Shown one piece after another: positions 14,236-38,610 of a DNA stretch of 64,000 nt. The translations under genes were made by a program, and so were the position numbers. Source of the DNA: Magnetospira sp. QH-2 (lineage in GTDB: Bacteria; Pseudomonadota; Alphaproteobacteria; Rhodospirillales; Magnetospiraceae); assembly GCF_000968135.1 (NCBI RefSeq), contig NZ_FO538765.1:1007819-1071818 (forward strand). The letters are read 5' to 3'. Numbering within the stretch: position 1 is the first letter of the stretch; every line of letters starts with the position of its first letter. The notes under the pieces are model-generated. The model searched no databases. It had not been told where the DNA came from and saw only the letters and a program-made list of their open reading frames with translations.

Positions 14236-14243
14236 GAGTCCCC

Positions 14244-16174: not shown

Positions 16175-16180
16175 AGTGGC

Positions 16181-17719
16181 TCAGAACTCCTTGCGCAGGC
16201 TGACAGAGACCGTGTTTTCCTTCAGGGCTGGAGTCCCTGTGGTGTTTTGATACAGCCGCGAGACTTGAGCCGAAGCATCCAGCGTGTCGTTCAGGGCATA
16301 GCTCAGCTGCGCGGTACCGTTCATTGACTTTGTCGTTCCGGAGCTGCTGGAGGAACTGCGGCTGAAATTGGCATTGACGTTCAAAGTTGTTTGGCGCGAA
16401 AGCTCCCGGTTCCAGCTCCCGTTCAATGACAGGCTCGAATCAGACCCTGCATTGGTGCCGCTGAAAGTTCGCTTGGTCAGGTTCACGCCGGCGTTGAAGC
16501 GGTTGCGCCCTCTGGTTCCGGTCAAACCCAGGCTGAGAGTCTGGGACTTAAAGCTGGATTCCACCAAATCGGTTTGCAGGTCGTTGGGATCCACCACAAG
16601 ACCCGTCGTGGCATCAATGATGTCACCGTCGTCGTTGGTGGTCAGATTGTTCAAGCTGCTGGAAAGAGCGGTTTGCTGGGTCGAGAAATCGGTCGAATAG
16701 GAGCCCTGCAACGTGGTCCGTGGCGAGAAGCGATAGGTCAGATCGCCAGAGAATTGAGTGGTGGTGAACCGCTTGCCATATTGGATGGTTACATTGGTTT
16801 TTGGTCCCGGGGCGATCTGCATGCCGCCGTTCCAGAAGAGTCCGTTGTTGGCCGATTGGTCCGCGCTGTTCTTGTCCTTGAATTTCTCGTAACCGGCGGA
16901 AGCCAGCAAGGTCAATTGCGGCATGACCACATAGGCGGCCTCTCCTTCGGTCACATCGCGGCGGTAATCGAATTGCCCTTGCTTCATGGAAACTTCCGTG
17001 CGCGCTTCGCCGGACCAGGTCAGGACACTGAAACGGCGGCCGCTTTCCAGGCCGGAGATAATCTCGTGAGTGATGGTATTGTTGAGGCCTCCATCGCCCG
17101 TCCCGGTGTCGGTCCCGGTGGCCATGAAGCGATTGCCGTTGAGCCGATAGGTCATCACCGAATCAGCCCAGCCGTCGTTGCCATGCTTGAAGGTGGGCGC
17201 GATGGAATAGTTGAGGATTCGGGTCCGGTTGGTCGATGTGGTGCGGTCGGTCGCCGTTGTGGTGCCTGTTTGCGAAACGAATTGCTCGCTCACCGATGCA
17301 CGGCCATCGACAGAAACGTAGTCCGGAATGATATCAACTTCTCCGAGCCCCAGCAGTTCATGCCGGAAGCCGTTCAGCTCCTTGTTTCGAAGATAGGTGT
17401 CCCGTGACAGGGAATAGCTGAAATTGGCACTGCTTCGGCCGCCTTCGCCCTGTAGGCTGATGCCGGCATCGGTGGTGTTGATAAAGTCGGTGGCCCGATT
17501 GGTGGTCGAGGAATTGGCGTTGTCGGTGAAGGTTTCCTCGGTGGCAACGGTGGTCACGATGTCCCAGCGGGCCTGGCTTTGCATTGGCAAAAGGGTCGCC
17601 AGACCGCCGACGAAAAGGCTCGCCAGCACGGATCCCCGGACGGCCATCGACAATGAATGGGTGCGTACGCAGGGGTACCCATTCCGTCCGAACCTATCCT
17701 TGTTTGCCGCCTTGGTCAT
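16181..17719 (-). CDS. PEP-CTERM-system outer-membrane beta-barrel (TIGR03016-type)
   Basis: A 500-odd-aa protein with an N-terminal signal (hydrophobic VLASLFVGGLATLLP, then QSQA), followed by many alternating-hydrophobicity strands rich in Ser, Thr and Asn. It ends in SVSLRKEF, a classic C-terminal aromatic barrel signal. Position in the XrtA cluster next to the Wza-like lipoprotein suggests the outer-membrane partner of polysaccharide export. The start is uncertain: 17719 (ATG) is used, 17779 or 17647 are possible; only the last would give a compact signal peptide. Confidence 0.83.
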   Translation of the reverse strand: MTKAANKDRFGRNGYPCVRTHSLSMAVRGSVLASLFVGGLATLLPMQSQARWDIVTTVATEETFTDNANSSTTNRATDFINTTDAGISLQGEGGRSSANFSYSLSRDTYLRNKELNGFRHELLGLGEVDIIPDYVSVDGRASVSEQFVSQTGTTTATDRTTSTNRTRILNYSIAPTFKHGNDGWADSVMTYRLNGNRFMATGTDTGTGDGGLNNTITHEIISGLESGRRFSVLTWSGEARTEVSMKQGQFDYRRDVTEGEAAYVVMPQLTLLASAGYEKFKDKNSADQSANNGLFWNGGMQIAPGPKTNVTIQYGKRFTTTQFSGDLTYRFSPRTTLQGSYSTDFSTQQTALSSSLNNLTTNDDGDIIDATTGLVVDPNDLQTDLVESSFKSQTLSLGLTGTRGRNRFNAGVNLTKRTFSGTNAGSDSSLSLNGSWNRELSRQTTLNVNANFSRSSSSSSGTTKSMNGTAQLSYALNDTLDASAQVSRLYQNTTGTPALKENTVSVSLRKEF

Positions 17720-17833
17720 TCCGTCGCCAGTGTGCCGTCTAGAGTGCTGTCGTGAATCTCGGATCGTTTCCAATCCCAAAACGACGCCCAGGCGTGCGTG
17801 ACGCCGGACGCCGGATCGGAACCGGAGAAAGAA

Positions 17834-18463
17834 TCAGAACCAAGCCTGCGGAACGATAATCACATCGCCCGGAAGCATTTCCACGTTCGCGCTCATGTCG
17901 CCTTCCTTGAGCAAATCGTCGAGCCGAATACGGAAATTCTCCTTGCCCTCGGCCTTTTGGCGTACCAGCACGGCCCGGTTGCCCGAGGCAAATTCGGTCA
18001 AGCCACCCACCTCAATCATCACATCAAGGACGGTCATCCTTTCACGGAATGAAATAGCCTGCGGCTCGGCGGCTTCACCCACCACGCGGACTTGCTGATT
18101 GAACGGTCCGACAAACCCGGTGACGATCACCGTGACGATCGGGTTTTGGACATATTCGCCCAGCACCTTTTCGATGTCTCGAGCCAGTTGTGTCGACGTT
18201 TTGCCGGCGGCTTGAAGATCTTCGATCAAAGGGACCGAAATCAATCCGTCGGGACGAACTGGAATGGTGGTCGACAGCTCCGGATTCCGCCAGACGAAGA
18301 TCTGCAGCGTATCCGTGGCGCCGATGCGATAAGTCGGTTGTTCCCCAACGGTCTGGGAAACGTCCGGGGCATCGTCATAGGGCGAGCAGGCGACCATAAA
18401 CAGGCCGAGTAGGGCGACCATGACGGGGCGGAGTGATATGACACTATTGAAATAGCTGCGCAC
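17834..18463 (-). CDS. Wza-like polysaccharide export lipoprotein (TIGR03027-type)
   Basis: About 209 aa with a lipoprotein signal peptide ending GLFMVAC, so the Cys after the hydrophobic stretch is the lipidation site. Next come the poly-export domain (YRIGATDTLQIFVWRNPELS, DGLISVPLIEDLQAAGKT) and a SLBB-like repeat with VRVVGEAAEPQAISF. It should form the periplasm-to-outer-membrane exit for the exopolysaccharide. The GTG at 18463 is chosen because it gives a basic n-region; a GTG at 18535 or ATG at 18421 are alternatives. It is the first gene of the minus-strand arm. Confidence 0.85.
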   Translation of the reverse strand: MRSYFNSVISLRPVMVALLGLFMVACSPYDDAPDVSQTVGEQPTYRIGATDTLQIFVWRNPELSTTIPVRPDGLISVPLIEDLQAAGKTSTQLARDIEKVLGEYVQNPIVTVIVTGFVGPFNQQVRVVGEAAEPQAISFRERMTVLDVMIEVGGLTEFASGNRAVLVRQKAEGKENFRIRLDDLLKEGDMSANVEMLPGDVIIVPQAWF

Positions 18464-18767
18464 GACTAAAGGTCCGAACAGTTGTGAATGTTGGAATGCA
18501 GTATCATATAGTTGGTTTCCTTGTGCAATAGTCACTTGAGTGATAGTGACATGTCTGCGCTATATCGGTCACACTCCCGTTGCCCATCCGCCACGGAGGT
18601 GGCTATGCCCGGATGGGGTGAGGAAACTATCGCCAATGGGTTTGAATCGGTGTTAAATGACTTCCGGATCAAATGCACGACGGTGGTTTCGTTATTGAAT
18701 TCAGCGGTTGCCGCGTGTTAAGGCCGCACCCAGAAAGTGTCACGCTGGAGCATTGTAAAGCGAAATA
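18464..18767. promoter_or_regulatory. Divergent control region of the exosortase/exopolysaccharide locus
   Basis: The roughly 300-bp gap separates the two divergently transcribed arms, so both promoters must lie here. A visible inverted repeat GTCACT (18531-18536) / AGTGAC (18545-18550) could be an operator. No clear -35/-10 pair or sigma-54 element was found. Confidence 0.4.
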
Positions 18768-20378
18768 ATGGACCAAATTCTTTCCTATATCCCTGCAATT
18801 TGGCGCCGTAGATGGTACGTGATCTGGGTGGCATGGCTGGTCTGCCTGATCGGGTGGCCGGTTGTGGCCTTTATTCCTGACAAATATGAGTCCAATGCGC
18901 GAATCGTGGTCGACACGGAAAGCATGCTGCGACCGCTGTTGCGGGGCTTGACGGTCGAGACCAATAAACTCCAGCAAATCGAAATCATGCATCGGACTTT
19001 GTTGAGCCGCCCCAATCTGGAAAAAGTGATCCGGATGACCGATTTGGATATCGGAGCGGTGACCGAGGCCGAAACCGAGAAGTTGATCCAGAGGCTACAG
19101 TCGAATGTCACCGTCACGGCGCAACGCACGAACCTCTTCTTGATCGCCTATAGCGACCCGATCCCCGAGGTCGCTTACAAGGTTGTCCAAGCCCTGATTA
19201 GTATTTTCGTGGAAGGCAACCTGGGCACCAGCCGGAAGGAATTGGATTCAGCGCGGCAGTTCATTGACGAGCAGGTGCGGATTTACGAAGAGCAGATGAC
19301 GACGGCTGAACAGCGATTGTCCCGCTTCAAGCAGGCCAATATCGATCTGCTTCCCGGAAGTTCCAACTACTACGATTTTCTCACGGCAGCCCGCAGTGAG
19401 TTGACCAAGCTGAAAGAAAATCTCGCGGACGCGGATACGCGGGTTTCTGAAATCCAGCGTCAATTGGGCGGTGTGCCGGAATACATTGAATTCGATGATG
19501 ACTCGACCGGAAGTGGGCCGCCGTCGGGGGTCGCCTCCCGTCTGATGGAATTGCAGCACCGGATGGATGATTTGCTGCTGAAATACACAAAAAACCATCC
19601 CGACGTCAAAGCGACCCAGCGCTTGGTTGACGATCTGAAAAAAGAACTGGCGGAAGAACGGGCCTCGGCTGCCACGGGAGGGCCGGGAAGCGGCGGCCCA
19701 GCGATCACCCGTCGCCCCAACGAGGTTTACCAAAGCATCAAAATGCAATTGGTTTCCGCACAGACCGAAGTGGCAAGTCTGCGCTCAAAGGTTTCACGGC
19801 AGGAAGGAGTCAATGCCAAGCTCGAAGAGCAAGCCAGCATGGTTCCAGAAGTCGAGAGCGAGTTGGACCGCCTGACCCGCGATTTTGAACTAAGCCGAAA
19901 AAACTACGAGGAACTCCTCGCCCGGCAAGAAGCGGCGATCATGTCCGAAAGCCAAGAAACCAAGGCTGAAAAAGTTCAGTTCAGGATTGTTGAGCCGCCG
20001 ACGCTTCCGGTCATTCCCACGGGTCTCAAGCGATCCTTGGTTCTGACCGCGGTCATGGTTTTAGGGTTCGGTGCCGGATTGGGCTTGGTAACCTTGTTTG
20101 TGAGCCTGCAAACCACGTTCCCGAGCACTTTGCGCTTGGCCCAGGTTACCGGAAGACCGGTGCTGGGCATTGTTTCGGTGAGTGTGCCCAAGGGCACGAA
20201 AACCTACCGGACCGTGCGGATCGTGACCTTTGTCCTGGCCATATGGGTCCTGATTGCCGTTTACTTCGGCCTGATGGTGGTCGAGCGCAATATCGGTCTG
20301 GTCAACGTTGTTCCCGCGGATGTGAAGGCGCAATTGATCAACAAGCTGCCCGAAGGCATCCGAGGCAGGCTGGAATAG
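18768..20378 (+). CDS. Polysaccharide chain-length determinant, XrtA-associated (TIGR03007-type)
   Basis: A 536-aa Wzz/GNVR-family inner-membrane protein. A first membrane segment (residues about 17-37) is followed by a periplasmic Wzz domain, a long coiled-coil region (residues about 160-410) with a GNVR-like ELDRLTRDFELSRKNYEELLARQE, and a last segment near residue 430 plus another near 495. It sets polymer length in Wzy-type export together with the tyrosine kinase encoded 30 bp downstream. It heads the plus-strand arm of the locus. Confidence 0.9.
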   Translation: MDQILSYIPAIWRRRWYVIWVAWLVCLIGWPVVAFIPDKYESNARIVVDTESMLRPLLRGLTVETNKLQQIEIMHRTLLSRPNLEKVIRMTDLDIGAVTEAETEKLIQRLQSNVTVTAQRTNLFLIAYSDPIPEVAYKVVQALISIFVEGNLGTSRKELDSARQFIDEQVRIYEEQMTTAEQRLSRFKQANIDLLPGSSNYYDFLTAARSELTKLKENLADADTRVSEIQRQLGGVPEYIEFDDDSTGSGPPSGVASRLMELQHRMDDLLLKYTKNHPDVKATQRLVDDLKKELAEERASAATGGPGSGGPAITRRPNEVYQSIKMQLVSAQTEVASLRSKVSRQEGVNAKLEEQASMVPEVESELDRLTRDFELSRKNYEELLARQEAAIMSESQETKAEKVQFRIVEPPTLPVIPTGLKRSLVLTAVMVLGFGAGLGLVTLFVSLQTTFPSTLRLAQVTGRPVLGIVSVSVPKGTKTYRTVRIVTFVLAIWVLIAVYFGLMVVERNIGLVNVVPADVKAQLINKLPEGIRGRLE

Positions 20379-20408
20379 AAGATCCCGCCTTGGCGGCGGG
20401 CAACGACT

Positions 20409-21431
20409 ATGGATTGGACCCAAACGAGCGAGCGTCGAAAGATGGAGCGGAAAAAAAAGCGACCTTCCCTGATTGAGCGCGCCGCCGAACGGTTTTCGAG
20501 CAGCGGTGTGGACTTTTCGGAAAAGCCAACGACCTCGGCGCGGAAGGCCGAGGCCGATAGTCGCCCCGGCGGCGGTGCCGAGGGCGGGGAGATGGCCGTC
20601 GAACCGAAAGGCCCGCCAGCGCCTGTGGAGCCCACACCCGCCAAAGGGTCCGATGGCGGCGGCAAGGATGGCTATCGCGGCGGCAATCATATTGATATCG
20701 ACCTGGATGCCATAGCGGAAAAAGGCATGATTACCTCGCGCGGCGAACGCTCCCGGATGACGGAAGAGTTCCGGGTGATCAAACGTCCGCTTTTGTTGCG
20801 CGCCCTGGCGACCGGCGAGGAAGCCGTCAAGGACGGTAACCTGATCATGGTCACCAGCGCCATTCCCGGTGAAGGCAAGACCTATACGTCGGTGAATCTG
20901 GCCATGAGCATCGCCAAGGAACGCGATGTGTTTGTGTTGTTGGTGGATGCGGATTTGAGCCGTCCCAATGTCATGCCGACCTTAGGCTTGAAAGCGGACC
21001 GCGGGCTCGTGGACCTTCTGGAAAATGAAGATCTTGACGTTGCCGATGTGTTGATGCGGACCAATATTCCCAATCTCTCCATCATTCCGGCGGGGCGCTC
21101 TCACTCCATGGGTACGGAATTGTTGGCCAGTGAACGGGCTGGACAGGTCATCAATGAGATTGCCATGCGATATCGCAACCGTGTGATTATCTTCGATACC
21201 GCGCCGGTTCTGGCCAGTAGCGAAGGCGGGGCGCTGTTGAAACATGTGGGGCAGATTATCCTGGTGGTCGAATTCGAACGGACCAAGGAAGTGGAAGTGT
21301 TGGGCGCACTGGATATGTTGGACAACTGCGAACATATCAATCTGGTGCTCAACAAGGCAGGGACCAGACTTGCCGGAGGCCACGGTGGATCCGCCTATTA
21401 CGGTAGCTATTACGCCGGTGGCGATGACTGA
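20409..21431 (+). CDS. XrtA-associated tyrosine autokinase (TIGR03018-type)
   Basis: A 340-aa BY-kinase cytoplasmic domain. A low-complexity, Gly/Pro-rich N-terminal linker (residues about 30-90) precedes the ATPase. Walker A is TSAIPGEGKTYTSVNLA (residues about 155-170), Walker A' is LLVDADLSRPN and Walker B-like is RVIIFDTAP. A C-terminal Tyr-rich tail (YYGSYYAGGDD) is the expected autophosphorylation cluster. It pairs with the preceding chain-length protein to control polymer export. Confidence 0.9.
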   Translation: MDWTQTSERRKMERKKKRPSLIERAAERFSSSGVDFSEKPTTSARKAEADSRPGGGAEGGEMAVEPKGPPAPVEPTPAKGSDGGGKDGYRGGNHIDIDLDAIAEKGMITSRGERSRMTEEFRVIKRPLLLRALATGEEAVKDGNLIMVTSAIPGEGKTYTSVNLAMSIAKERDVFVLLVDADLSRPNVMPTLGLKADRGLVDLLENEDLDVADVLMRTNIPNLSIIPAGRSHSMGTELLASERAGQVINEIAMRYRNRVIIFDTAPVLASSEGGALLKHVGQIILVVEFERTKEVEVLGALDMLDNCEHINLVLNKAGTRLAGGHGGSAYYGSYYAGGDD

Positions 21432-21497
21432 TTTCGTCAAAGGACTGGAAATGGCGCCGTCACGGTGGCCGATGAATTGGGCGATTGCGAGTACCCG

Positions 21498-23006
21498 ATG
21501 ACTGGGAACAATGATCGGCTGGCCTATTGGATGGCCGGGTTGGGTGTGTTGATGGTAACGGCGCTGTTGTTCGAAACGGCGCGCGATACGGTCGGTGTCT
21601 GGTCGACCTCCTCATCCTTCAATCATGGTTTTGCAATTTTTCCTGTCGTCGCGTACCTGATTTGGGAACGCAAGGCGGATTTGGCGTGGGTGGTGCCCAA
21701 ACCGGCCCCATGGGCGCTGATTCTGGTATCCGGGGCGGCGGTCGTCTGGTTGATCGGTCGTGTAACGGATACCTTGTTGGTCCAGCAGATCGGGTTCATG
21801 GGGGTGGCAGAATCCCTTGTGCTGACGCTTTTGGGCCCACAGGTAGCATGGCGGATCGCCTTTCCGCTGTTTTTTGCCTGGTTCGCCATTCCTTTTGGCG
21901 ATTTCCTGGTCCCGCCCATGCAGGATGTGACGGCGTTGATCCTGGTGTGGGGGCTGGAGCTGACCGGAATACCCGTTTACGCGGACGGCGTGTTGATCAG
22001 CATACCCAGCGGTGATTTCGAGGTGGCCGAGGCCTGTTCTGGCTTGCGTTTTTTCACCGCTTCAACGGCCCTGGGCGCGCTTGGAGCCAATATGCTTTAC
22101 CGTTCATGGGGTAGACGATTGGCCTTCGTCGCGCTGGCCCTGACGATCCCCATTTTGGCCAATGGATTTAGGGCTTACGGAATCGTCGTTCTGGCCCATT
22201 ATGTGGACCGTGATTTCGCCCTGGGTGTGGACCATCTGATTTATGGTTGGATCTTCTTCTCCTTCATCACCATGATCTTGATCGCCATCGGATGGCAGTT
22301 TCGCGAGGATTTCGTGCCGACCACCGAGGCGCCTGCGGGTGCAGCCGGTTTTGCCGCGCCGGCTGGCTCAAGGTCCGTGGTCATGCTGACGGTCGGCACA
22401 TTGGCCTTGGTTTCCATTGCCCCGTCTTTCGCCTCTTTTGCCCTGGCGCGGACCGCTGAACAGGCGCCGACCATGACGGTCCCGGCGCTGTCAGCTCCAT
22501 GGCGGATCGTCGAGGAGATTCCCCAATCCTGGCAGCCGGCTTTTCTAGGCCCCGACGACGAAGCGCGGTGGCGTTTCAGCGATGGGGAAAACATGGTTGA
22601 TGTCTACATCGCCTACTATGCCCGGCAGAGGCAGGGATCAGAGGCCGTGTCCTATGGCAACCATGTGGACAATAAGACATGGCGCCGGGCCGGGGTTGGC
22701 ACCACGGTTGTCAAGCATGGTGAGCAATCCGTTTCCTTTCATGCCAAGACATTGATTTCCAAACATGGAAAACGGCTTTCGTGGAAAACCTACTGGGTTG
22801 ACCAGTCTTTTACCGCTCGCCCGTGGATGGCCAAAGTGATGCAAGCCAGAGCCCTGATTTTTGGCGGGACACCGGCGGCAGCGGCGTTGGTGGTATCATC
22901 GCCCTATGACGATCGCCCCAAGAAAGCGGCGGAAACTCTCAAGAAATTTTTGGCGGATTCTGGGTTTATGATCCAAACACTCGACCGGGCGGCGGGTCTC
23001 AAATAA
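21498..23006 (+). CDS. xrtA: Exosortase A with fused EpsI domain
   Basis: A 502-aa inner-membrane transpeptidase-like protein that sorts PEP-CTERM proteins. About eight membrane segments fill the first 290 residues. The catalytic triad is visible: Cys180 in EACSGLRFF, Arg225 in NGFRAYG and His246 in GVDHLIYG. Residues about 310-500 are an EpsI (DUF3485) domain, the usual XrtA fusion. The start is uncertain: ATG at 21498 is used, and a GTG at 21465 would add 11 residues. One PEP-CTERM candidate in this window lies at 57723. Confidence 0.92.
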   Translation: MTGNNDRLAYWMAGLGVLMVTALLFETARDTVGVWSTSSSFNHGFAIFPVVAYLIWERKADLAWVVPKPAPWALILVSGAAVVWLIGRVTDTLLVQQIGFMGVAESLVLTLLGPQVAWRIAFPLFFAWFAIPFGDFLVPPMQDVTALILVWGLELTGIPVYADGVLISIPSGDFEVAEACSGLRFFTASTALGALGANMLYRSWGRRLAFVALALTIPILANGFRAYGIVVLAHYVDRDFALGVDHLIYGWIFFSFITMILIAIGWQFREDFVPTTEAPAGAAGFAAPAGSRSVVMLTVGTLALVSIAPSFASFALARTAEQAPTMTVPALSAPWRIVEEIPQSWQPAFLGPDDEARWRFSDGENMVDVYIAYYARQRQGSEAVSYGNHVDNKTWRRAGVGTTVVKHGEQSVSFHAKTLISKHGKRLSWKTYWVDQSFTARPWMAKVMQARALIFGGTPAAAALVVSSPYDDRPKKAAETLKKFLADSGFMIQTLDRAAGLK

Positions 23007-23035
23007 CGGTTTTGGCTGTGAACAAGAGGTAGAGT

Positions 23036-24946
23036 ATGTGCGGCATCGTTGGCATCTATCACGATAGTAGCGCCCGCCCCATCGACGAGGCGCTGCTGTC
23101 GCACATGAACGACACCCAATTTCATCGCGGCCCGGATGAAGGCGGTCTGTTTGTCGCGCCGGGGATCGGCCTGGGCCACCGTCGGCTATCCATTCTCGAT
23201 CTTTCTGGCGGGCGTCAGCCGCTGTACAACGAGGATGACTCCGTCGTGGTCGTCTATAACGGCGAGATCTATAATTTTCAGGAACTTTTCGACGAATTGA
23301 AAGCCCTGGGACACCAGTTCCGCACCCATTGCGATACCGAGGCCATCGTGCATGCCTGGGAGGAATGGGGCGAGGACTGCGTCCATCGATTTCGCGGCAT
23401 GTTCGTCTTCGCCATCTGGGATAGCAACAAAGATACCCTGTTCCTGGCCCGTGACCGGCTGGGGATCAAGCCGCTCTACTACGCCCCCTTGGCCGATGGC
23501 ACGCTGGTCTTCGGCTCGGAATTGAAATCGGTGCTGCCCTATCCGGGCGTGCCTCGGGATCTGGACCCGGCGGCCGTGGAGGAATACTTCTCCTACGGCT
23601 ACGTTCCCGACCCGCGCAGCATCTTCAAGGGCGTGTACAAGTTGGAATCCGGCCATACCCTGACCTATCGTCGCGGTATGCCGACCCCACAACCGCGCCA
23701 GTATTGGGACGTGCGGTTCGACGCCGATGTGCCCAAGGACCCGCGCGAGATTCAGGAACAATTGATCGAGCGCCTGCGCGAGGCGGTGAAAATCCGCATG
23801 ATCGCCGAAGTGCCTTTGGGGGCGTTTCTGTCCGGTGGTGTGGATTCCAGCGCCGTGGTGGCGATGATGGCTGAATCCTCGGAAAAACCGGTGGATACCT
23901 GTTCCATGTCCTTTGCCCACAAGGATTATGACGAATCCGCCTATGCCCAAATGGTGGCCGAGCGCTATCACACCAATCACCGGGTGCAGCAGGTGGACCC
24001 GGATTCCTTTGACCTGATCGACCAGTTGGCGACCTTCTACGACGAACCTTTTGCCGATAGTTCGGCCATGCCCACCTATCGGGTCTGCAAACTGGCCCGG
24101 GAAAAGGTCACCGTCGCCCTGTCCGGCGATGGCGGCGACGAGGTCTATGCCGGGTACCGCCGCTATCCGTTCCACAGCTATGAAGAGATGGTGCGCGGCA
24201 AGCTGCCGCAGGGAATCCGCAAGCCGTTGTTCGGCATGCTCGGGGCGACCTATCCGAAACTCGACTGGGCACCGAAATTCCTGCGCGCCAAGTCCACCTT
24301 CCAGTCCATCGCCCGGGATGCGGACGAAGGCTTCTTTCACAGCGTTTCCGTGATGCCGGATCACCTGCGACGGCGCCTTTACAGCGAGCGCATGACCAAT
24401 GACCTGCAAGGGTATCATGCGGTGGAGGTGCTGCGACGGCACATGAAGGCGGCTCCCACCGATCACCCGCTGTCCAAAGTGCAATATGCGGACATGAAAA
24501 CATGGCTGCCGGGCGATATCCTGCCCAAAGTGGATCGCACCAGCATGGCGGTATCGTTGGAGGTGCGGGTGCCGGTGTTGGACCATAAATTTGTCGAATG
24601 GTCCTGTGGCCTGCCACCGGATATGAAGCTGAACGGGCGCGAGGGAAAATATATCTTCAAGAAGGCCCTGGAGCCGCACCTGCCCGATGACATTCTTTAC
24701 CGCAAGAAGATGGGCTTCTCCGTGCCCCTGGCTGCCTGGTTTCGAGGACCCCTGAAGGACCGGGTCCGTGACGTGGTCACCGGCGACCTTCTGGGGGATT
24801 GTGGTCTATTTGATCAAAAATACCTGAAGACTCTGGTTGATCAGCATCAGGCCGGGTTGCGCGATCATAGTGCGCCCCTTTGGACGATCGTCATGTTCGA
24901 ATCCTTTTTGCGCAAAACCCGCGAGGCGGGGAAGCCGGCGCTTTGA
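23036..24946 (+). CDS. XrtA-associated asparagine-synthase-like amidotransferase (TIGR03108-type)
   Basis: A 636-aa class II glutamine amidotransferase. Cys2 of MCGIVGIYHD is the glutaminase nucleophile, with HRGPDEGG and the VVVYNGEIYNFQEL motif following. The C-terminal synthetase domain shows the ATP PPi loop LSGGVDSSAVVAMM near residue 262 and a second SGDGGDEVYAGYRRY stretch. Members in exosortase loci probably amidate a sugar or peptide part of the exopolysaccharide pathway rather than making free asparagine. It follows exosortase by 29 bp. Confidence 0.93.
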   Translation: MCGIVGIYHDSSARPIDEALLSHMNDTQFHRGPDEGGLFVAPGIGLGHRRLSILDLSGGRQPLYNEDDSVVVVYNGEIYNFQELFDELKALGHQFRTHCDTEAIVHAWEEWGEDCVHRFRGMFVFAIWDSNKDTLFLARDRLGIKPLYYAPLADGTLVFGSELKSVLPYPGVPRDLDPAAVEEYFSYGYVPDPRSIFKGVYKLESGHTLTYRRGMPTPQPRQYWDVRFDADVPKDPREIQEQLIERLREAVKIRMIAEVPLGAFLSGGVDSSAVVAMMAESSEKPVDTCSMSFAHKDYDESAYAQMVAERYHTNHRVQQVDPDSFDLIDQLATFYDEPFADSSAMPTYRVCKLAREKVTVALSGDGGDEVYAGYRRYPFHSYEEMVRGKLPQGIRKPLFGMLGATYPKLDWAPKFLRAKSTFQSIARDADEGFFHSVSVMPDHLRRRLYSERMTNDLQGYHAVEVLRRHMKAAPTDHPLSKVQYADMKTWLPGDILPKVDRTSMAVSLEVRVPVLDHKFVEWSCGLPPDMKLNGREGKYIFKKALEPHLPDDILYRKKMGFSVPLAAWFRGPLKDRVRDVVTGDLLGDCGLFDQKYLKTLVDQHQAGLRDHSAPLWTIVMFESFLRKTREAGKPAL

Positions 24947-24954
24947 TTAGTCTT

Positions 24955-24994
24955 TTGCTCCCTCCTGATGGCCATCGCGATGGTGGGGGAGCAA
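24955..24994 (+). other. Intercistronic hairpin before the acyl carrier protein gene
   Basis: TTGCTCCC (24955-24962) pairs with GGGAGCAA (24987-24994), and the loop contains its own small palindrome GATGGCCATC. No T-run follows, so it looks like an mRNA-processing or partial attenuation structure inside the operon rather than a full terminator. Confidence 0.4.
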
Positions 24995-25017
24995 TAATTG
25001 AATGAATGGAAAATAAC

Positions 25018-25269
25018 ATGGCCACCCTTGATCACGTTATCGGATTGCTCGGCGAAGTCCTGCATCTGGGAGATCGGACGGCGGATCTGACCGCCGATAC
25101 GGCGCTGTTGGGAAGTCTGCCGGAAATGGATTCCATGGCCGTGGCGACGGTGATCGCGGGTTTGGAGGAACGTTTCGACCTGGCCATCGAGGACGATGAC
25201 CTGACGGCCGAGGTTTTCCTCACTGTGGGCAGCCTCTGTGCATTCGTGGAGTCTAAGCTTGGCGGCTGA
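25018..25269 (+). CDS. Acyl carrier protein, XrtA locus
   Basis: About 83 aa of helical ACP fold. The phosphopantetheine site is Ser39 in PEMDSMAVATVIAGLEE, a variation on the usual D-S-L. The ATG at 25018 has GGAAA eight bases upstream; an ATG at 25006 is possible. In exosortase A loci an ACP of this kind accompanies an acyl-CoA ligase and hydrolases; here it is directly followed by two hydrolases, so it may carry an acyl group for polysaccharide or lipid decoration. Confidence 0.85.
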   Translation: MATLDHVIGLLGEVLHLGDRTADLTADTALLGSLPEMDSMAVATVIAGLEERFDLAIEDDDLTAEVFLTVGSLCAFVESKLGG

Positions 25270-26041
25270 TCGCGAGCCACAGTTTCTACAAGGTCCGAAT
25301 GGTCCCTTGTTTACCCTGCGGATCGGTCCTGCCGCCGCGCAGGCTCGCGCGGCTTTGATATATGTTCCGCCTTTTGCCGAAGAAGGAAATCGCTCGCGAC
25401 GGGTTGCCGTGGATTTGGCGGAGACCCTGGCGCCGCTCGGGATGGCCACTCTTTTGCTGGATCCCTATGGAACAGGGGACAGCGGGGGTGACCTGGATTC
25501 CGTTCGTTGGTCCACCTGGATCGAAGATGTGCGCGCGGCAACCGGCTGGCTGCGGGAGTCCGGCTATGAAACCATTTCCTTGCTGGGCTTGCGGTTGGGG
25601 GCTGGTCTGGCCTGTGCCGCGGCAGACGGGACAACCGAGCGGGTCATTCTTTGGCAACCGGTTCTCAAGGGCCCGACTTTCCTCACCCAGTTTCTAAGAA
25701 TTCGGGTGGCTGCGGGCCTTGGCGGCGCTCAGGAGACCGTGAAGGATTTGCGCGCACGCTGGGACGCGGGGGAAACCTTGGAAGTGGCCGGATACGCCCT
25801 GTCCGCCGCCTTGGCCAAGGATCTGGATCAATGGACTCTCGCCAACCCTGGGGTACCGGTGGATTGGTTCCAGGTCGGTGGCGAGGCGCTCAATCCCGCC
25901 GCCTCGACCTGTCTGGCCCAATGGGGGGCAACGAGTCGGGCTCAAGTCGTATCTGGCGAGGCCTTTTGGTCCATCGAAGAAGTCGTTGCGGCGGACGATC
26001 TGGTGGCGGCGACGGCAGCCTTGTGGCAGGACAAACCATGA
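25259..26041 (+). CDS. Exosortase A system-associated alpha/beta hydrolase (type 2)
   Basis: About 260 aa. It has an early YVPPFAEEGNRSRRV segment, LDPYGTGDSGGDLDSVRW and a GLRLGAGLACAAA nucleophile region. In that last region the usual G-x-S-x-G serine appears as G-x-R-x-G, so hydrolase activity is doubtful. The family is restricted to XrtA loci. A TTG start at 25259 with GGAG upstream overlaps the ACP gene; a GTG at 25238 is the alternative. Its stop overlaps the next hydrolase by 4 nt. Confidence 0.83.
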   Translation: MAADREPQFLQGPNGPLFTLRIGPAAAQARAALIYVPPFAEEGNRSRRVAVDLAETLAPLGMATLLLDPYGTGDSGGDLDSVRWSTWIEDVRAATGWLRESGYETISLLGLRLGAGLACAAADGTTERVILWQPVLKGPTFLTQFLRIRVAAGLGGAQETVKDLRARWDAGETLEVAGYALSAALAKDLDQWTLANPGVPVDWFQVGGEALNPAASTCLAQWGATSRAQVVSGEAFWSIEEVVAADDLVAATAALWQDKP

Positions 26042-30334: not shown

Positions 30335-32305
30335 TTATTCGGCTGCGGAGGCCTTCTTGGCCGCTTCCCTGGCATCATCGCCAATGGGTTTGGCGGGTGT
30401 CGCCGTTGCGGGCTTCCGCGTGACCATTTTGATATAGGGCGCCAGCCACTTGGTGTTGCGTGCCCGGTAGCCGAGCAACAGGGCCACCAGGGTGCCATAG
30501 ATGTAGGGTTCGCCGTTCTCGGGCTCGGCAGCCATCATGAAGTGCAGCACCACCACCACATCCAGCACATAGACCGAGCGATGCAACTTCTTCCAGTTCC
30601 GCCCGCCCATGGTCTGGACCAGCTTCTTGTAGGAGGTGATGGCCAGCGGCAGCAGGATCATGTAGGCCAGGATGCCGACAATGATGAACTCGCGCTTGGC
30701 GATATCCTTGGCCATCTCGCCCCAGTTCAGGTCCCACTGGAACCACACGTACACCAGCACGTGCAAGGTGGCGTAGAAGAAGGCGTAAAGCCCGATCATC
30801 CGCGAGTATTTGGCGATCTTGTTGGCCCCGGTCAGCTCTCGCAGGGGCCGCATGGCCAGCGAAAGAATCAGGAAGTTCAGCGCCCAGTCGCCCAGATAGC
30901 GATTGAAGAAGCCCACCGGCATTTCATCCACCCCGGTACCCGGCAGCATGCCGCTGACCGCCACCCGGCCCAGCAGCCAGATCAAGGGCAGCAGGCAGGT
31001 CATGAAGACCAACGGCTTGAGGTCGGTCTTCTTGAGCTTTTGCAGGATATGCTTCGGTGATTCATCGACCCCGTTGTAAAGCAGCCAGATGGCATAGCCC
31101 ATGACCAGCAAATTGCCGGTGGCCGTGAGTACAAAGGGCGAGCGCGGCCCCACGGCGTCAAAGAAATAGCCGCCGCTTTGGACCAGCAACACAATGCCGA
31201 TACCGCCAGCCACGTTGAAGGCACCTTGGACCGACCCTTGAATTTTGTTGGGCGCCAGATCGCTGATCAGCACCCGGGGCGCCACCAGGCAACCCGCCTG
31301 TCCGGCACCGATGAGCATCAACGGCAGCACCACGCCCCATTCAAAGGGATTGACGAATAGTGCCAAAAAGATGAACCCGGCCCCGGACATGGAAAGCCCG
31401 GCGCCGATAGCGGCGATGCGGCTGTGGTTTTCGATAAAGCGCGACCAAAAGGGAATGCAGATCAGCACCATCACGCCGGTCAGGCCGATCATCAAGCCCG
31501 CATGGCCCACCGCGTCAGTGCGGCTCAGGCCGACCACATCGGCAAAGGAAATACTCCACAGCATGTAGAACAAGCCGATGAAGACCATGTCGGCGCGGGT
31601 GTAAAAAGCCGAGGCAAAACAAAGCAGCATCCGTGGGTCGTTGGCGGCCAGATTCCAAACCCGCTTCCAAGGGCGCTCTTCTTCTTCCAGGCGCGGCGTA
31701 TTGTCGACCAGGAAATTCTTCGCCACCCAGGCGCCCAGCAGGCCGATGGCGGCGGGCGCCAACATGACGATCCAGATGCCGCCTTCCTGTTTGGGAATCT
31801 GCATCATCACCGCGTAAATGATGGTGCTGCCAAAGGTCATCATGAACACGGTATTGGTCATGAATCGGGCGCGATTGTTATAGGTGGTGAAGTCGCCGGC
31901 GAGCGTGGTCATCTGCAACTGCACCGCATCGGCGCCCAGGGACATCAAAATCCGCGTCAGGTAATAGACCACCAACCCGCCAATGCCGAGGACGGCGCCC
32001 AATTCAGGGCTGAAAGGGGCGAGCAGGGCGCCCGTGGCGGCGATGAGGAATCCGAATACGACCACCGGAATGCGCCCGTAGCGATCCGACAGGTAGCCGA
32101 AATAGCCAATCAAAATCAGGCTGAGGATCTCCACCACCACCTGGATGTTGGCATTGATGGTTCCGGCTTCCTCGAAAGGAATTTGTAGAACCTGATCCAG
32201 GAACAAGGGCTGGATGCCCACCGCCAGGGCCATGATGGTCGAGCCCAAGGCCGACAGCATGTAGACCGTGTTCCAATTTTTGGATGTGACTTTGCGACTG
32301 GTCAT
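30335..32305 (-). CDS. mamZ: MamZ: major facilitator fused to a ferric-reductase-like domain
   Basis: The 656-aa protein acts in the magnetosome membrane. Residues about 1-420 form a 12-helix major facilitator domain with the loop motif GYLSDRYGRIP. This half closely parallels MamH of the same window. Residues about 440-620 are a YedZ/ferric-reductase-like six-helix domain (RYLGDWALNFLILSLAMRPLREL, MIGLYAFFYATLHVLVYVWF, WKKLHRSVYV) with His residues suited to b-type heme. Known role: MamZ works with MamX and MamH in iron transport and redox control for magnetite. It is divergent from mamX. The C-terminal tail is Ala/Lys-rich. Confidence 0.93.
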   Translation of the reverse strand: MTSRKVTSKNWNTVYMLSALGSTIMALAVGIQPLFLDQVLQIPFEEAGTINANIQVVVEILSLILIGYFGYLSDRYGRIPVVVFGFLIAATGALLAPFSPELGAVLGIGGLVVYYLTRILMSLGADAVQLQMTTLAGDFTTYNNRARFMTNTVFMMTFGSTIIYAVMMQIPKQEGGIWIVMLAPAAIGLLGAWVAKNFLVDNTPRLEEEERPWKRVWNLAANDPRMLLCFASAFYTRADMVFIGLFYMLWSISFADVVGLSRTDAVGHAGLMIGLTGVMVLICIPFWSRFIENHSRIAAIGAGLSMSGAGFIFLALFVNPFEWGVVLPLMLIGAGQAGCLVAPRVLISDLAPNKIQGSVQGAFNVAGGIGIVLLVQSGGYFFDAVGPRSPFVLTATGNLLVMGYAIWLLYNGVDESPKHILQKLKKTDLKPLVFMTCLLPLIWLLGRVAVSGMLPGTGVDEMPVGFFNRYLGDWALNFLILSLAMRPLRELTGANKIAKYSRMIGLYAFFYATLHVLVYVWFQWDLNWGEMAKDIAKREFIIVGILAYMILLPLAITSYKKLVQTMGGRNWKKLHRSVYVLDVVVVLHFMMAAEPENGEPYIYGTLVALLLGYRARNTKWLAPYIKMVTRKPATATPAKPIGDDAREAAKKASAAE

Positions 32306-32587: not shown

Positions 32588-33475
32588 ATGCTCAGTCAGA
32601 TCAAAACCGAACAATGGATCATGGGCGCCAGCATCGTCTTCAGCTTGGCGTTGTTGCTGATTACCCTGTTTTCCGACGATCTGTGGGAAGAGCATGACTA
32701 CGAGCATGCGCCGCCGATCGTCGCCGGCATTCCCGCGCCACATATGGATGGGCGGGAAAAGATGGCCTGTTCCAGTTGTCATGTGATCATGTCGACCCGT
32801 AATCAGGCCGCCCTGCCGTCGACCAACCCCAATGCCACGGGAATCGCGGTCCCGCCGATCAAGGCTGGAACCCTGTCTCCTCATACGGATGGCCGCGAGG
32901 CGCAGCCCTGCCGCAACTGCCATCAGATCATCCCGCGCAGCGCCGCCCAGGCGCAGCAGGGAATGCGGATTGGTCAAGCCACGCCCCCCTCACGACCGCA
33001 GCCCGTGGGAGTCGCCGCTGCCTGGACTCAACAGCCGCAACGGCAAGCCATGGCCAGCAACGCCTTGCAGCCGGTCATGCCGCCTGATGGGGTCAAGCGG
33101 CTGCGCATTGCCGGGCCGGGGCAGGGGAACGGCACCACAGATTTCGGGTCCCTGAACATTCCGTTGGATCGGGCCGGACTGCATCGCTTCCAAGGCAGTA
33201 TCGCGCAAGTCGCCATTTCGGCGCCCAATGCCCAGAATTCGTTGATCAATATTTGGGTCGACGATGGGGTCAATGTGCCGCACCGGGCGGTGCTGGCGCC
33301 GTCATGGTTCCTGGAAGAACAACGCTGTCCGGTTTCCTTGAATATGTACGTCAAGGGATTGGCCTTCCGCATCGAGCTGCCGCAAGCGGTCGATCCGCTG
33401 TACGTGAAGACCATCGCGGTCAATGGCAAGACCTGTGTCCTGCGCGATACCCTCGGCGCCCCCGCGTGGCAATGA
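32588..33475 (+). CDS. mamX: MamX magnetochrome protein
   Basis: About 295 aa. One N-terminal membrane anchor (residues about 12-29) is followed by two magnetochrome c-type heme motifs: CSSCH at residue 61 and CRNCH at 108, each preceded by PHxDGRE. The C-terminal domain (about 180-295) resembles the end of MamS in this window. It is placed in the magnetosome lumen, where MamX takes part in iron redox with MamZ. The ATG at 32588 is chosen by analogy with MamX starting shortly before the WIMG segment. A ferritin-like gene follows after 19 bp. Confidence 0.92.
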   Translation: MLSQIKTEQWIMGASIVFSLALLLITLFSDDLWEEHDYEHAPPIVAGIPAPHMDGREKMACSSCHVIMSTRNQAALPSTNPNATGIAVPPIKAGTLSPHTDGREAQPCRNCHQIIPRSAAQAQQGMRIGQATPPSRPQPVGVAAAWTQQPQRQAMASNALQPVMPPDGVKRLRIAGPGQGNGTTDFGSLNIPLDRAGLHRFQGSIAQVAISAPNAQNSLINIWVDDGVNVPHRAVLAPSWFLEEQRCPVSLNMYVKGLAFRIELPQAVDPLYVKTIAVNGKTCVLRDTLGAPAWQ

Positions 33476-33494
33476 CCGGAAGGGAACAAGCGTC

Positions 33495-34151
33495 ATGAGC
33501 CTCACCAAACCCGGCAAGAACGACGAGGGCGCCCAGTGGTTCGTCCTGTTCCTGGCGGTGGCGTTGGTGACTGGCGTGCTGATCCTAGTGGTCGATTCCA
33601 TGCTGGGGACCAATGCCCCGCAGGTCACAGGTTTGAGCAAGCAAGAAGTCGCGGATCTACAATACATGCGGGAAGAGGAAAAACTCGCTCGGGATGTTTA
33701 TCTGGACCTCTTTGAGCGTTGGCAGATCCCCATGTTCAAACGCATTGCCCAGGCCGAACAGCGGCATATGGACGCGGTGGGTGGCCTGTTGACCCGCTAC
33801 CGGGTTCCCGACCCGGCCATGGCGGCCAAGCGCGGGGAATTCATGGACAGCCACTTGGCGGACCTCTATCAGGAGCTCACGGCCAAGGGACAGGCCTCGC
33901 TTCAGGCCGGTTTGGCCGTAGGCGCCCTCATTGAGGAAGTGGATATCGCCGACCTGGATAAGGCCCTGGAAAATACGCAACGGGCCGATATACGGGATGT
34001 CTATCGCACCATCCGGCGCGGCTCGCGCAACCATCTGCGGTCCTTCGCCGGACAACTGTCGGCCCGAGGCGCGCCTTACAAGGCCAAGGTGCTGACTGCT
34101 CGTCGGGTGAATAGAATTCTTTCCTCGCCCATGGAAACAGGCCAGTTCTAA
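33495..34151 (+). CDS. Membrane-anchored ferritin-like protein (DUF2202-type)
   Basis: A 218-aa protein. One membrane helix (residues about 15-33) anchors a four-helix domain with candidate di-iron ligands: Glu60-62 in REEEKLARDVY, Glu88 and His91 (E-x2-H), Glu147/148 and His180. DUF2202 proteins are ferritin-like and of unknown function. It starts 19 bp after mamX with a GGAAGGGA ribosome site, so it is almost certainly in the mamX operon and may oxidise or hold iron at the magnetosome membrane. Its stop codon lies in the end of a MITE-like repeat interrupted by IS110. Confidence 0.82.
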   Translation: MSLTKPGKNDEGAQWFVLFLAVALVTGVLILVVDSMLGTNAPQVTGLSKQEVADLQYMREEEKLARDVYLDLFERWQIPMFKRIAQAEQRHMDAVGGLLTRYRVPDPAMAAKRGEFMDSHLADLYQELTAKGQASLQAGLAVGALIEEVDIADLDKALENTQRADIRDVYRTIRRGSRNHLRSFAGQLSARGAPYKAKVLTARRVNRILSSPMETGQF

Positions 34152-34160
34152 CAGGCTGCT

Positions 34161-35547
34161 TCTGTAATCGAGTCATTTGAGTCAAGCTGATTTCCAAGCC
34201 GTCGGTTTGAACCTGGGTTATGTGGCGCCCTTTGCTTCTGTCCGCGGTCGACGTCGTCGCCGCATGATGGGGATCAAGGGGGATCGGGTGCAGCAATCTG
34301 AAAAGCGTGGTCTTACGCCACTGCAGCCTGCGCGCTGTCATCCGAGCCCCGCGCGTCGCCACGCGTCCTGGCCGCCCTTCAGGCGATCTCGGTTTTCGTT
34401 GTGTTTAGATGGCGGTCTCCTCCTTGCGGTACTGGAAGTCCGTGCCGTCGATCCACATGCGATGCATGATTACGGCGAGACGCCGGGCAACGGCTACCTT
34501 GGCGCGTTTCATCCCGCGCCTTTTGGCGACCGCGAGCCCCCAGTGTTTGAGCCAGGACCAACGGCGGGTTCGAGTGAGAAGTGCATTGGCGGCCTCGAAC
34601 AAAAGCCAACGAACCATGGCATCTCCGCACTTGCTGATGGGGCCGCTTCGGTCCTGCTCTCCCGAGGCGTATCTGCGTGGGACAAGCCCGAAGTGGGCGC
34701 CGACCATGACCGACTTTTGAAACCGTTCCGGCACGTCGAGTCCTGTCCTGAAAGCGAGGGCGGTAACCGGGCCGACGCCGGGAACGGTCATCAGGCGCCG
34801 GCAAACGCTATCATCGCGCGCAGCGGCATGAACCTGCCGGTCGAGCTTGTCGAGTTGTTCGAGCAAGGCTTGGCGCGCAAGCAAGAGCGGCTCGGCGGCT
34901 GCGCTGAGGTGCGGGTTATCAGCCGTCAATTCCCGAACCCGCGCCGCGAAAAGGCGTCCGCGCGCCATACCGACCTTGAGGCCGAAAGCTTTCAATGTTC
35001 CTCGTACCGTATTGGACAACTGACGGACCTGATGAACCAGGGTCTCCCGATGGGTCAGCACCATCCGGAGCTCCTGACTGCGCGCGGTCTTGACGTGGGT
35101 CGCGCGGTACAAACCGGTCCGCATCGCCTGGCTGATCAAGCGGGCGTCGCGACGGTCCGTCTTGACTGGGCTGGCGCTGGCAAAGGCCTTCATTTGCCGG
35201 GTCTCGATACAAATCACAGGGAGGCCCCGACTGGACAGTCCTGCGTACAGCCAAGGCGCCAGAGGGCCAGCTTCCAACCCAATTCGCGCAAAGCCACGCC
35301 CGCTTTCCTCGAGCCAAGTGGCGACCGCCTCGGGTGTGCTTGACACCTTGCCTTCGCGAATGACGGTTCCCTTTGCATCAATCTCACAGATCGAAATGCT
35401 TGCCATCGATACGTCCATTCCAACAAAATACTCCATAGCTGGTCTCCTCTGTTCCATGTCCAGGAATTGACCCGGATACTTGATCAAGACCGAGTGTGGA
35501 GACCAGCTGACTGTCTAGGCAATCCCTGACTGCTCGATTACCGCCAT
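34161..35547. mobile_element. IS110-family insertion sequence
   Basis: Boundaries are inferred from the interrupted repeat. The sequence left of 34161 (TAACAGGCTGCT) continues after 35547 as CTGAAAAAGT, reconstituting the end found intact at 9125; the shared CT would be a 2-bp target. Short imperfect inverted ends (GTAATCGAG near 34164, CTCGATTAC near 35534) flank one transposase gene. The element is about 1.39 kb and looks intact. Confidence 0.8.
34405..35436 (-). CDS. IS110-family transposase
   Basis: A 343-aa DEDD-type transposase. The N-terminal RuvC-like domain begins MEYFVGMDVS, with the first catalytic Asp, and contains TDRRDARLIS. The C-terminal transposase_20 domain has MTVPGVGPVTALAF and FGLVPRRYASGEQDRSG, with the family's Ser in the last region. 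The ATG at 35436 has GGAGA upstream. It appears complete, so the element may be active. It lies between the mamX-ferritin pair and the rest of the magnetosome genes. Confidence 0.93.
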   Translation of the reverse strand: MEYFVGMDVSMASISICEIDAKGTVIREGKVSSTPEAVATWLEESGRGFARIGLEAGPLAPWLYAGLSSRGLPVICIETRQMKAFASASPVKTDRRDARLISQAMRTGLYRATHVKTARSQELRMVLTHRETLVHQVRQLSNTVRGTLKAFGLKVGMARGRLFAARVRELTADNPHLSAAAEPLLLARQALLEQLDKLDRQVHAAARDDSVCRRLMTVPGVGPVTALAFRTGLDVPERFQKSVMVGAHFGLVPRRYASGEQDRSGPISKCGDAMVRWLLFEAANALLTRTRRWSWLKHWGLAVAKRRGMKRAKVAVARRLAVIMHRMWIDGTDFQYRKEETAI

Positions 35548-37024: not shown

Positions 37025-37257
37025 CGAATCGCGAATCGGAACGGTGTCGGTGCGGTGGCCGGGGCGGCAAATGTTGCCCAGTGACCGGGAAGAAATACCA
37101 AATATAGGCCCAATACCAAGGATTGTTCGCCTATATCGGTGTGGAATTCGCGCTTGACCCGGCAAAATTTACCCGAATTGACCCAAATAACGATTTCACT
37201 TAACCTTATTGAAGGAATTAACCTTTTTTAGCGCGCGTGCTAAGGGGCACATCGGGA

Positions 37258-38610
37258 ATGTCGAACGTTCACCATTTGAGAAACGTGGCCATGGGAGCCG
37301 GGCGTTGGAACGCCTGGCGGAAATCCGAGCCTGATGTGCAGCCTGACCTGAGTCAGGCCGATTTGCGCGGTGCCAATCTGTCCGGCATGGATCTGGCGGA
37401 AGCCGTCATGTCGCTGGCCAACCTGAAGAAGGCCAACCTGAGCGGTGCCAACCTCAAGGCTTCCAACATGGCCGGGTCCATCCTTGAGGATGTCAATCTG
37501 GCCGGTTGCGTGATGGTCGGATCCAATCTGTCCGGTGCGCGGCTGACCCGCACGAATCTGGCCGGTGCCGACATGCGTCGGGTGAACCTGTCGGGCGCAC
37601 GCTTTGGCGGCGATGCCATTCTCACCGGCACCGACCTGGGCGGCGCCAATCTGGCCGGCGCCAAATTGGGGGGCTCGATCCTCAGCGGCGCCAACCTGGC
37701 ACGCTCCAATCTGGCCGGGGCCGATCTGCGGAATACCGATCTTAGCGGCGCCAATTTGTCCGGCGCGGTTACCGCCGGCGCCCACTTCGATGGCGCCGAT
37801 CTCAGCGGGACCATTCTCGATGATCTGGGCGAGTTGGACGATTCGGAGCTAGAGGACGACTATGTCGAGGTTGAGGCTGAACCGGAGTATGTCCCGGAAG
37901 AGGACTTCGCCGAGCCGCGGATTGACGACTTTCCCGAGGAACTCCCGCCCGAGCCGGAAGCCCTTGAGCCAGAGCCCATGCCTGAGCCCGAGCCAGAACC
38001 AGAGCCAGAGCCAGAGCCAGAGCCCGAGCCCGAGCCCGAGCCAGAACCCGTGGCGGCTGCCCCCGTGGCTGATCCCAACGCCTTTTTTAGCTATCAGTCC
38101 GGCGAATGGGCGGTGTTCTCGCTGGTGATCAATGGATTCGACGATCGTACCGAAGAAGAAAAACGCAATCTGGTGGCTTTGCTCAAGCGCTATAACAAGT
38201 TCGTGGTCGGCGAGGCGTCGGATGTCTGTATGTCGACCCGGGGCGATGCCATCATCGGCGTGTTCAACGAACCGGCACAGTCCCTGTTGTTTGCGGCCAA
38301 TTACATCAACGTGCTCAAGAACATCAATGTGGAAGCTTTTGCCGCCGTCCATTGGGGCACGGCCACCATCAAGACCGATCCCGGCGATGGCGAGATGGAA
38401 CTGGTGGTTGATTCCATCAGTCCGGCGGCTCGCTTGGAGCCCATCGGCAGCACCGGCGAGATTCTGGTGCTCGAGGAGTTGCACAGCCGGGTGGCTGACC
38501 AGAGCGACCTGTTCGACTTCAACAAAGTGGTGCGTAAATGGAAACGGGCCGGCGACAGCAACGACAACGCGGTGGACGCGGTCTGCTATCAGGTCATGCC
38601 CGTGAACTGA
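37258..38610 (+). CDS. Pentapeptide-repeat protein fused to a degenerate nucleotide-cyclase domain
   Basis: About 450 aa in three parts. Residues about 25-185 are some 30 pentapeptide repeats (A-[ND]-L-S-G type), expected to fold as a right-handed quadrilateral beta-helix. Residues about 190-275 are an acidic, Pro-rich linker with a long Glu-Pro run. Residues about 280-450 resemble a class III adenylate/guanylate cyclase: VINGF stands where D-I-x-G-F is usual, RGDAIIGVF keeps the second metal Asp, and ISPAARL replaces V-N-x-A-A-R-L. Loss of the first Asp and the Asn suggests no cyclase activity. It lies just upstream of mms6 and ends at a strong terminator. Confidence 0.8.
   Translation: MSNVHHLRNVAMGAGRWNAWRKSEPDVQPDLSQADLRGANLSGMDLAEAVMSLANLKKANLSGANLKASNMAGSILEDVNLAGCVMVGSNLSGARLTRTNLAGADMRRVNLSGARFGGDAILTGTDLGGANLAGAKLGGSILSGANLARSNLAGADLRNTDLSGANLSGAVTAGAHFDGADLSGTILDDLGELDDSELEDDYVEVEAEPEYVPEEDFAEPRIDDFPEELPPEPEALEPEPMPEPEPEPEPEPEPEPEPEPEPEPVAAAPVADPNAFFSYQSGEWAVFSLVINGFDDRTEEEKRNLVALLKRYNKFVVGEASDVCMSTRGDAIIGVFNEPAQSLLFAANYINVLKNINVEAFAAVHWGTATIKTDPGDGEMELVVDSISPAARLEPIGSTGEILVLEELHSRVADQSDLFDFNKVVRKWKRAGDSNDNAVDAVCYQVMPVN

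Follow-up and report, generated by a model that had tools for sequence, protein, structure and literature searches.

Next to mamX, Magnetofaba australis IT-1 has been reported to carry a ferritin-like open reading frame, of which Magnetococcus marinus MC-1 has a homologue (PMC3934378, PMC5088516; 2014/2016). This frame, ORF 02816, is 34% identical to the MC-1 protein, and control of the iron redox conditions at the crystal was suggested as its role (PMC5088516). Neither the electron partners of MamX nor the direction in which its electrons flow are known (PMC3971196). Uebe et al. reported that magnetite forms in MSR-1 without Bfr or Dps (PMC6529640). Among proteins of known structure, the closest to the one studied here is MJ0754 (PDB 3q4n, 3q4o, 3q4q, 3q4r), one entry of which is titled 'with Zn2+'. 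Among the papers searched for DUF2202 and MJ0754, none used either name. A sequence-only reading of the locus had stated that no magnetosome role is assigned to DUF2202; this is right for the name DUF2202, but the ferritin-like ORF beside mamX had already been described and a redox role suggested for it (PMC3934378, PMC5088516).

In this study, we analysed a 64-kb stretch of DNA (64,000 nucleotides, hereafter the window) from the genome of Magnetospira sp. QH-2, whose two contigs total 4,052,370 bases, with 4,021,307 of them in the larger one. ORF 02816 probably belongs to the same family as the DUF2202 protein of the window: the copies of G322 and of genome G326 (in the latter, the one beside mamX) share 34% identity, matching the published figure, and G326 is probably the IT-1 genome. 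The G326 counterpart of ORF 02816 has lost E60-62 and E88, and the window copy lies 3' of mamX instead of 5'. MJ0754 resembles the window protein over the whole domain, with identical ligands except E148, which is D in MJ0754. In contrast to MJ0754, the window protein has an additional signal anchor and linker and adjoins mamX, and the magnetotactic copies form a clade of their own. Rubrerythrin, bacterioferritin, Dps and aldehyde-deformylating oxygenase share the ferritin-like bundle, at Foldseek E above 0.01 and with 10-22% identity, whereas the window protein has no rubredoxin domain, gives no evidence of a cage and carries SxxH instead of ExxH in its fourth helix. The C-terminal domain of MamX and MamS, the proposed partner domain, is not homologous to DUF2202, but a similar domain is fused to it in an Acidobacteriota MAG. 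The placement in DUF2202, a clade seen in this sample only in mam-bearing genomes, the extent of the linkage and the fusion with a MamX-C-like domain appear to be new.

Results

The mamX gene occupies positions 32588-33475 of the window on the plus strand and encodes a protein of 295 aa with an N-terminal membrane helix, two magnetochrome c-heme stretches and a C-terminal OB-like beta domain common to MamS. It matched NF040996 at E 1e-64 with 218 bits, which is under the 400-bit cut-off. The DUF2202 gene (33495-34151, plus strand) sits within the magnetosome gene cluster, on the same strand as mamX, and runs from an ATG at 33495 to a stop ending at 34151, encoding a membrane-anchored ferritin-like four-helix protein of 218 aa. 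It starts 19 bp 3' of mamX, and this gap (33476-33494, plus strand) holds a Shine-Dalgarno-like AGGGAA just 5' of the ATG. The mamZ gene (30335-32305), encoding an MFS transporter fused to a ferric-reductase-like membrane domain, scored 937 bits with the MamZ profile against a cut-off of 650; it is on the minus strand and therefore divergent from mamX. Coordinates and strands thus confirm what had been read from the letters, namely a DUF2202 gene 19 bp behind mamX with mamZ divergent. A promoter-like site was sought in the mamX-DUF2202 region and none was found. Because of this, and because 19 bp is too short for a terminator, the sequence makes co-transcription of mamX and the DUF2202 gene likely. 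The next gene encodes an IS110-family transposase (34405-35487, minus strand), and no second copy of this element was found within the 64-kb window. The window also contains an XrtA/PEP-CTERM exopolysaccharide cluster (13207-26041) upstream of the magnetosome genes, and, between the DUF2202 gene and an Mms6-like gene, the gene of a protein (37237-38610) that combines pentapeptide repeats, a stretch rich in Pro and Glu, and a C-terminal domain.

Residues 55-211 of the window protein matched PF09968 at E 2.9e-54 with 183.7 bits, against a curated cut-off of 22. An AlphaFold2 model from 22 aligned copies had a mean pLDDT of 92 and showed a helix at residues 11-38 followed by a bundle. The best Foldseek matches for this model were the MJ0754 entries 3q4r and 3q4n (rmsd 0.8-0.9 A, 44% identity), with a TM-score of 0.97 by target length, and MJ0754 matched the window protein at E 1.8e-41 in a sequence search. 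The model has the four-helix bundle of ferritin-like proteins, and its structural matches outside DUF2202 were all distant. The model places the N-terminal membrane helix at residues 11-38 (codons 33525-33608, plus strand). It is the single hydrophobic helix before the bundle, with a Kyte-Doolittle peak of 2.94 at residues 15-33. The protein has no cysteine, and no rubredoxin-like FeS4 site or further Pfam domain was found in it.

The plus strand encodes the ligand candidates E60-E61-E62 of helix 1 at 33672-33680, the ExxH of helix 2 (E88-Q-R-H91) at 33756-33767, E147-E148 at 33933-33938, and H180 of the last bundle helix (S177-R-N-H180) at 34032-34034. In an alignment of 100 rows, E61, E62, E88, H91, E147 and H180 were nearly invariant. 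The same six residues were invariant in the 79 rows, from the matches listed, that fall outside the magnetotactic clade described below, and E60 was E in 77 of these 79. At position 148 the magnetotactic rows have E, and the remaining rows of the 100-row alignment have either D or E. As for ExxH in helices 2 and 4, helix 2 has E88xxH91 and the last bundle helix reads S177xxH180, so that one canonical glutamate is absent. Sequence and model suggest that the protein probably binds two metals, di-iron being favoured. The sequence-only reading had proposed a DUF2202 protein with E-E-E, E-x2-H, E-E and H ligand candidates, one membrane anchor and a ferritin-like four-helix fold. Each part of this description was borne out, by a PF09968 match well over the cut-off, by the presence of every ligand candidate, nearly all of them conserved in the alignment, by the single hydrophobic helix and by superposition on the MJ0754 structures with an rmsd of 0.8 A.

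The distribution of the family was examined in 317 genomes of the window's order, with a MamX-model match taken as E 1e-6 or better and a strong DUF2202 match as E below 1e-20. MamX-model matches were found in 38 of these genomes, some of the matches being to MCR or MamS-like parts of other proteins. Strong DUF2202 matches were found in nine, seven of them among the 38 with a MamX-model match and two among the 279 others (Fisher p 6e-6, with kinship ignored). In a class-wide sample of 385 genomes, DUF2202 matched at E 1e-15 or better only in the window's own genome. In 48 Magnetococcia genomes, mamX was found in 23, DUF2202 in 11 and both in ten. Unlike a core mam gene, DUF2202 was therefore not present throughout the magnetotactic relatives, being carried by 7/38 in the order and by 10/23 of the mamX-bearing Magnetococcia. 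It was not found in G143 or G161, which we take to be MSR-1 and AMB-1, respectively. An inspection of the genes upstream of mamX in Magnetococcia lacking DUF2202 showed no evident stand-in. The matches listed show DUF2202 to occur widely among bacteria and archaea that have no known magnetosomes. Since most magnetotactic genomes lack the gene, including those taken as MSR-1 and AMB-1, the DUF2202 gene is accessory and lies outside the core magnetosome machinery.

A tree was built from the 21 DUF2202 copies of mam-bearing genomes and 79 outside rows, these being the best 77 among the matches listed plus G116 and G118; its bootstrap was not fully settled. The 21 copies formed one clade apart from the outside rows (support 100/99), with one branch for the nine copies of the window's order (100/96) and another for the twelve Magnetococcia copies (100/94). 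Genome G445, which is in the clade and has no mamX match, had MamB over the cut-off, and G116 and G118, whose DUF2202 copies fall outside the clade, gave no MamB match over the cut-off. The clade is confined to mam-bearing genomes, a statement that holds for the sampled rows because the outside rows are the best 77 among the matches listed together with G116 and G118. Within the clade, the window copy paired with a chromosomal copy of the same genome (100/92, 66% identity). Given this pairing, the window copy may have come to lie beside mamX in an event separate from that in Magnetococcia, and its position may not be ancestral. We had also considered the window copy as a direct counterpart, by unbroken adjacency, of the mamX-linked Magnetococcia copies, and dropped this in view of the same pairing.

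Each of the 20 clade copies whose N-terminus is complete has a strongly hydrophobic helix ahead of the domain. Outside magnetotactic bacteria, most N-termini of the sampled relatives resemble, as judged by eye, cleavable signal peptides or lipoprotein signals. We infer that the N-terminal helix of the window protein acts as a signal anchor and leaves the bundle on the outer side. Hemes of the c type are attached outside the cytoplasm. Since MamX carries such hemes and an N-terminal membrane helix, MamX and the DUF2202 protein would both face the periplasm or the magnetosome lumen.

We then compared the gene neighbourhoods. In six of the ten Magnetococcia with both genes (G503, G413, G361, G389, G318 and G326), DUF2202 lies immediately 5' of mamX on the same strand, so the order is DUF2202 then mamX there and mamX then DUF2202 in the window. 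The order in G326 is mamC-DUF2202-mamX-mamZ, and DUF2202 also adjoins mamC directly in three further Magnetococcia (G322, G330 and G449). In G159, DUF2202 is within 5 kb of one mamX copy and near mamC. A second mamX-mamZ set of this genome shares a separate contig (L041, G159:C21) with mamC, DUF2202, feoB and genes for a MamH-like and a chemoreceptor-like protein. DUF2202 adjoins feoAB in G126. The second copy of G326 and the single copy of G397 are on the contig bearing mamX, away from that gene. For seven of the 21 clade copies, no magnetosome gene was found nearby: the second copy of the window's genome, two in G018 and one each in G038, G181, G153 and G445. Of the 20 clade copies counted, eight are within 5 kb of mamX, or 5/16 when close kin are collapsed. 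With a chance of about 0.25% per copy, a rough binomial estimate for this closeness is about 1e-16, or 4e-10 with close kin collapsed, and both figures are too small because linkage can be inherited. Linkage to mamX in other genomes, on which the sequence-only reading had been made to depend, was thus found repeatedly in magnetotactic genomes, and extends to mamC.

Every ligand is kept in 18 of the 21 clade copies. In the copy beside mamX in the IT-1-like genome G326 (L098), TGA replaces E60-62 and H replaces E88, with the frame open and the anchor kept; the second copy in the same cluster keeps its ligands. In one of the two copies of G018 (L006), E88 is replaced by Q, H91 by Y and H180 by N; the other copy is intact. 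The G449 copy beside mamC (L097) has no anchor and no helix 1 in any frame, and is either a decayed gene or an assembly error. These degenerate copies are the main argument for a structural role of the protein in some lineages.

MamX (33156-33475) and MamS (55849-56496) have an OB-like C-terminal domain in common. No Pfam model was found for this domain, and a search of PDB sequences brought up no relative of its MamX version. AlphaFold2 modelled the C-terminal domain of MamX with confidence as a beta domain, and its best Foldseek matches were OB-fold proteins, the fold name being read from the match list. A search of a viral structure library gave no match below E 0.001. In an Acidobacteriota MAG (L141:9509-11746), a DUF2202 protein carries an N-terminal MamX-C/MamS-like domain, and the next gene encodes two such domains; the fusion was detected with a profile that included the L141 repeats. 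A MamX-only profile detects the next gene at E 8e-8, and profile-against-profile comparison of this neighbour gave a probability of 97.4 and E 9e-12. Its MamX match had made it a candidate cytochrome, which was rejected, as it consists of two MamX-C/MamS-like domains and its translation has no CxxCH motif. In L156 (WOR-3), a single-domain MamX-C-like protein is encoded 1.9 kb from DUF2202 on the same strand. Strong matches of the MamX-C domain occurred in only 3/50 DUF2202 genomes searched, so its association with DUF2202 outside magnetotactic bacteria is rare. Among 52 neighbour proteins, DUF4405 was the commonest family after DUF2202 itself, with four matches, and a DUF4405 membrane protein is near DUF2202 in L141 (7925-8818) and L156 (1897-4983). 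In L160, likewise a MAG from outside the known magnetotactic groups, a DUF4405 membrane protein is encoded close to DUF2202 and to a MamX-C-like protein.

Discussion

We hold, with about even confidence, that the window protein is a signal-anchored extracytoplasmic di-metal DUF2202 protein, likely di-iron, that serves as a redox partner of MamX. The basis for this is its family, fold, anchor and ligands, the clade, the linkage to mamX and mamC, and the fusion with a MamX-C-like domain. The bundle would stand on the outer face of the cytoplasmic membrane, corresponding to the lumen face of the magnetosome. There the helix-1 glutamates, E88/H91, E147 (perhaps with E148) and H180 would form a two-metal site, most likely di-iron. 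Electrons could pass between this site and the c-hemes of MamX, in one direction or the other, and perhaps on through MamZ. As a result, the Fe(II)/Fe(III) state might be set as by a ferroxidase, or O2 or peroxide might be removed beside the growing crystal as by a peroxidase.

Several observations speak against a partner of MamX. Most mamX genomes are without the gene, and the magnetite-forming model strains appear to manage without it. The IT-1-like copy next to mamX is without E60-62 and E88, and the G449 copy has neither anchor nor helix 1. Seven of 21 clade copies showed no magnetosome gene nearby, the fourth ligand helix is SxxH, and the window copy is closest to the chromosomal copy of its own genome. 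MSR-1 also forms magnetite without Bfr or Dps (PMC6529640). It had further been proposed that such a protein adds a step between Fe transport and magnetite; evidence against such a step being general is that most mamX genomes have no DUF2202 and that the mamX-adjacent copy of the IT-1-like genome has lost ligands.

The remoteness of a third of the clade copies from known magnetosome genes, including the second copy of the window's genome, would also suit a general envelope protein against oxidant or metal stress that is useful in iron-rich cells, its place in the clusters reflecting shared transfer and selection for iron tolerance. The wide occurrence of DUF2202, among the matches listed, in bacteria and archaea that have no known magnetosomes would fit such a protein. 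However, direct adjacency to mamX or mamC in many genomes and in more than one gene order would be unexpected for it. The joining of DUF2202 to a MamX-C-like domain in a bacterium not known to be magnetotactic also speaks against this explanation, which we regard as possible but rather doubtful. That the gene came to lie beside mamX by rearrangement, with no functional meaning, is very improbable: although gene order differs between the window and Magnetococcia and an IS110 element is next to the DUF2202 gene, 8/20 clade copies are within 5 kb of mamX, and still 5/16 after kin are collapsed, when about 0.25% would be expected for each.

Other rivals keep the link to MamX or iron but change the function. 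A subunit that serves the structure or assembly of a membrane complex of MamX, MamZ and MamC, its metal chemistry being secondary or, in some copies, missing, would account for the IT-1-like mamX-adjacent copy that lost E60-62 and E88 and keeps its open frame and anchor, for the G018 copy that lost E88, H91 and H180, and for DUF2202 adjoining mamC. This is unlikely, as 18/21 copies keep every ligand and, of the three degenerate ones, two occur alongside an intact copy in the same genome and that of G449 is cut short at the N-terminus. The ferritin-like fold, with bacterioferritin and Dps among the distant structural matches, could instead point to an iron store that is tethered to the membrane and built like a ferritin cage. 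The best matches are however to MJ0754, cage ferritins appear only at E above 0.01, and an anchor on every subunit would be expected to hinder a closed cage; Bfr and Dps are moreover dispensable for magnetite in MSR-1 (PMC6529640). We give such a store hardly any credence. In the earlier idea of an oxidase or an iron store, storage is thus the less likely half, because the membrane-tethered subunit shows no sign of a cage.

Returning to the redox partner of MamX, a wider proposal can be made tentatively, and we consider it rather unlikely as it stands: DUF2202 may be the missing partner, and the OB domain, DUF2202 and a membrane redox protein may together be an envelope iron-redox module older than magnetotaxis, which some magnetotactic lineages keep as a lumen ferroxidase or peroxidase tuning magnetite growth. 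A tie between DUF2202 and prismatic crystals was also considered (PMC12724286). Judged from sequences and models, the DUF2202 gene is a recurrent accessory gene of magnetosome clusters whose anchored, probably di-metal product most likely works with MamX in iron or oxygen redox chemistry. Being accessory, it would explain variation between lineages and not magnetite formation as such. The protein is a testable candidate for the redox partner of MamX, encoded beside mamX itself, and its apparent absence from two model strains puts DUF2202 out of reach of the genetics done there. The fusion outside known magnetotactic bacteria offers a lead to a role of the MamX C-terminal domain that preceded the magnetosome.
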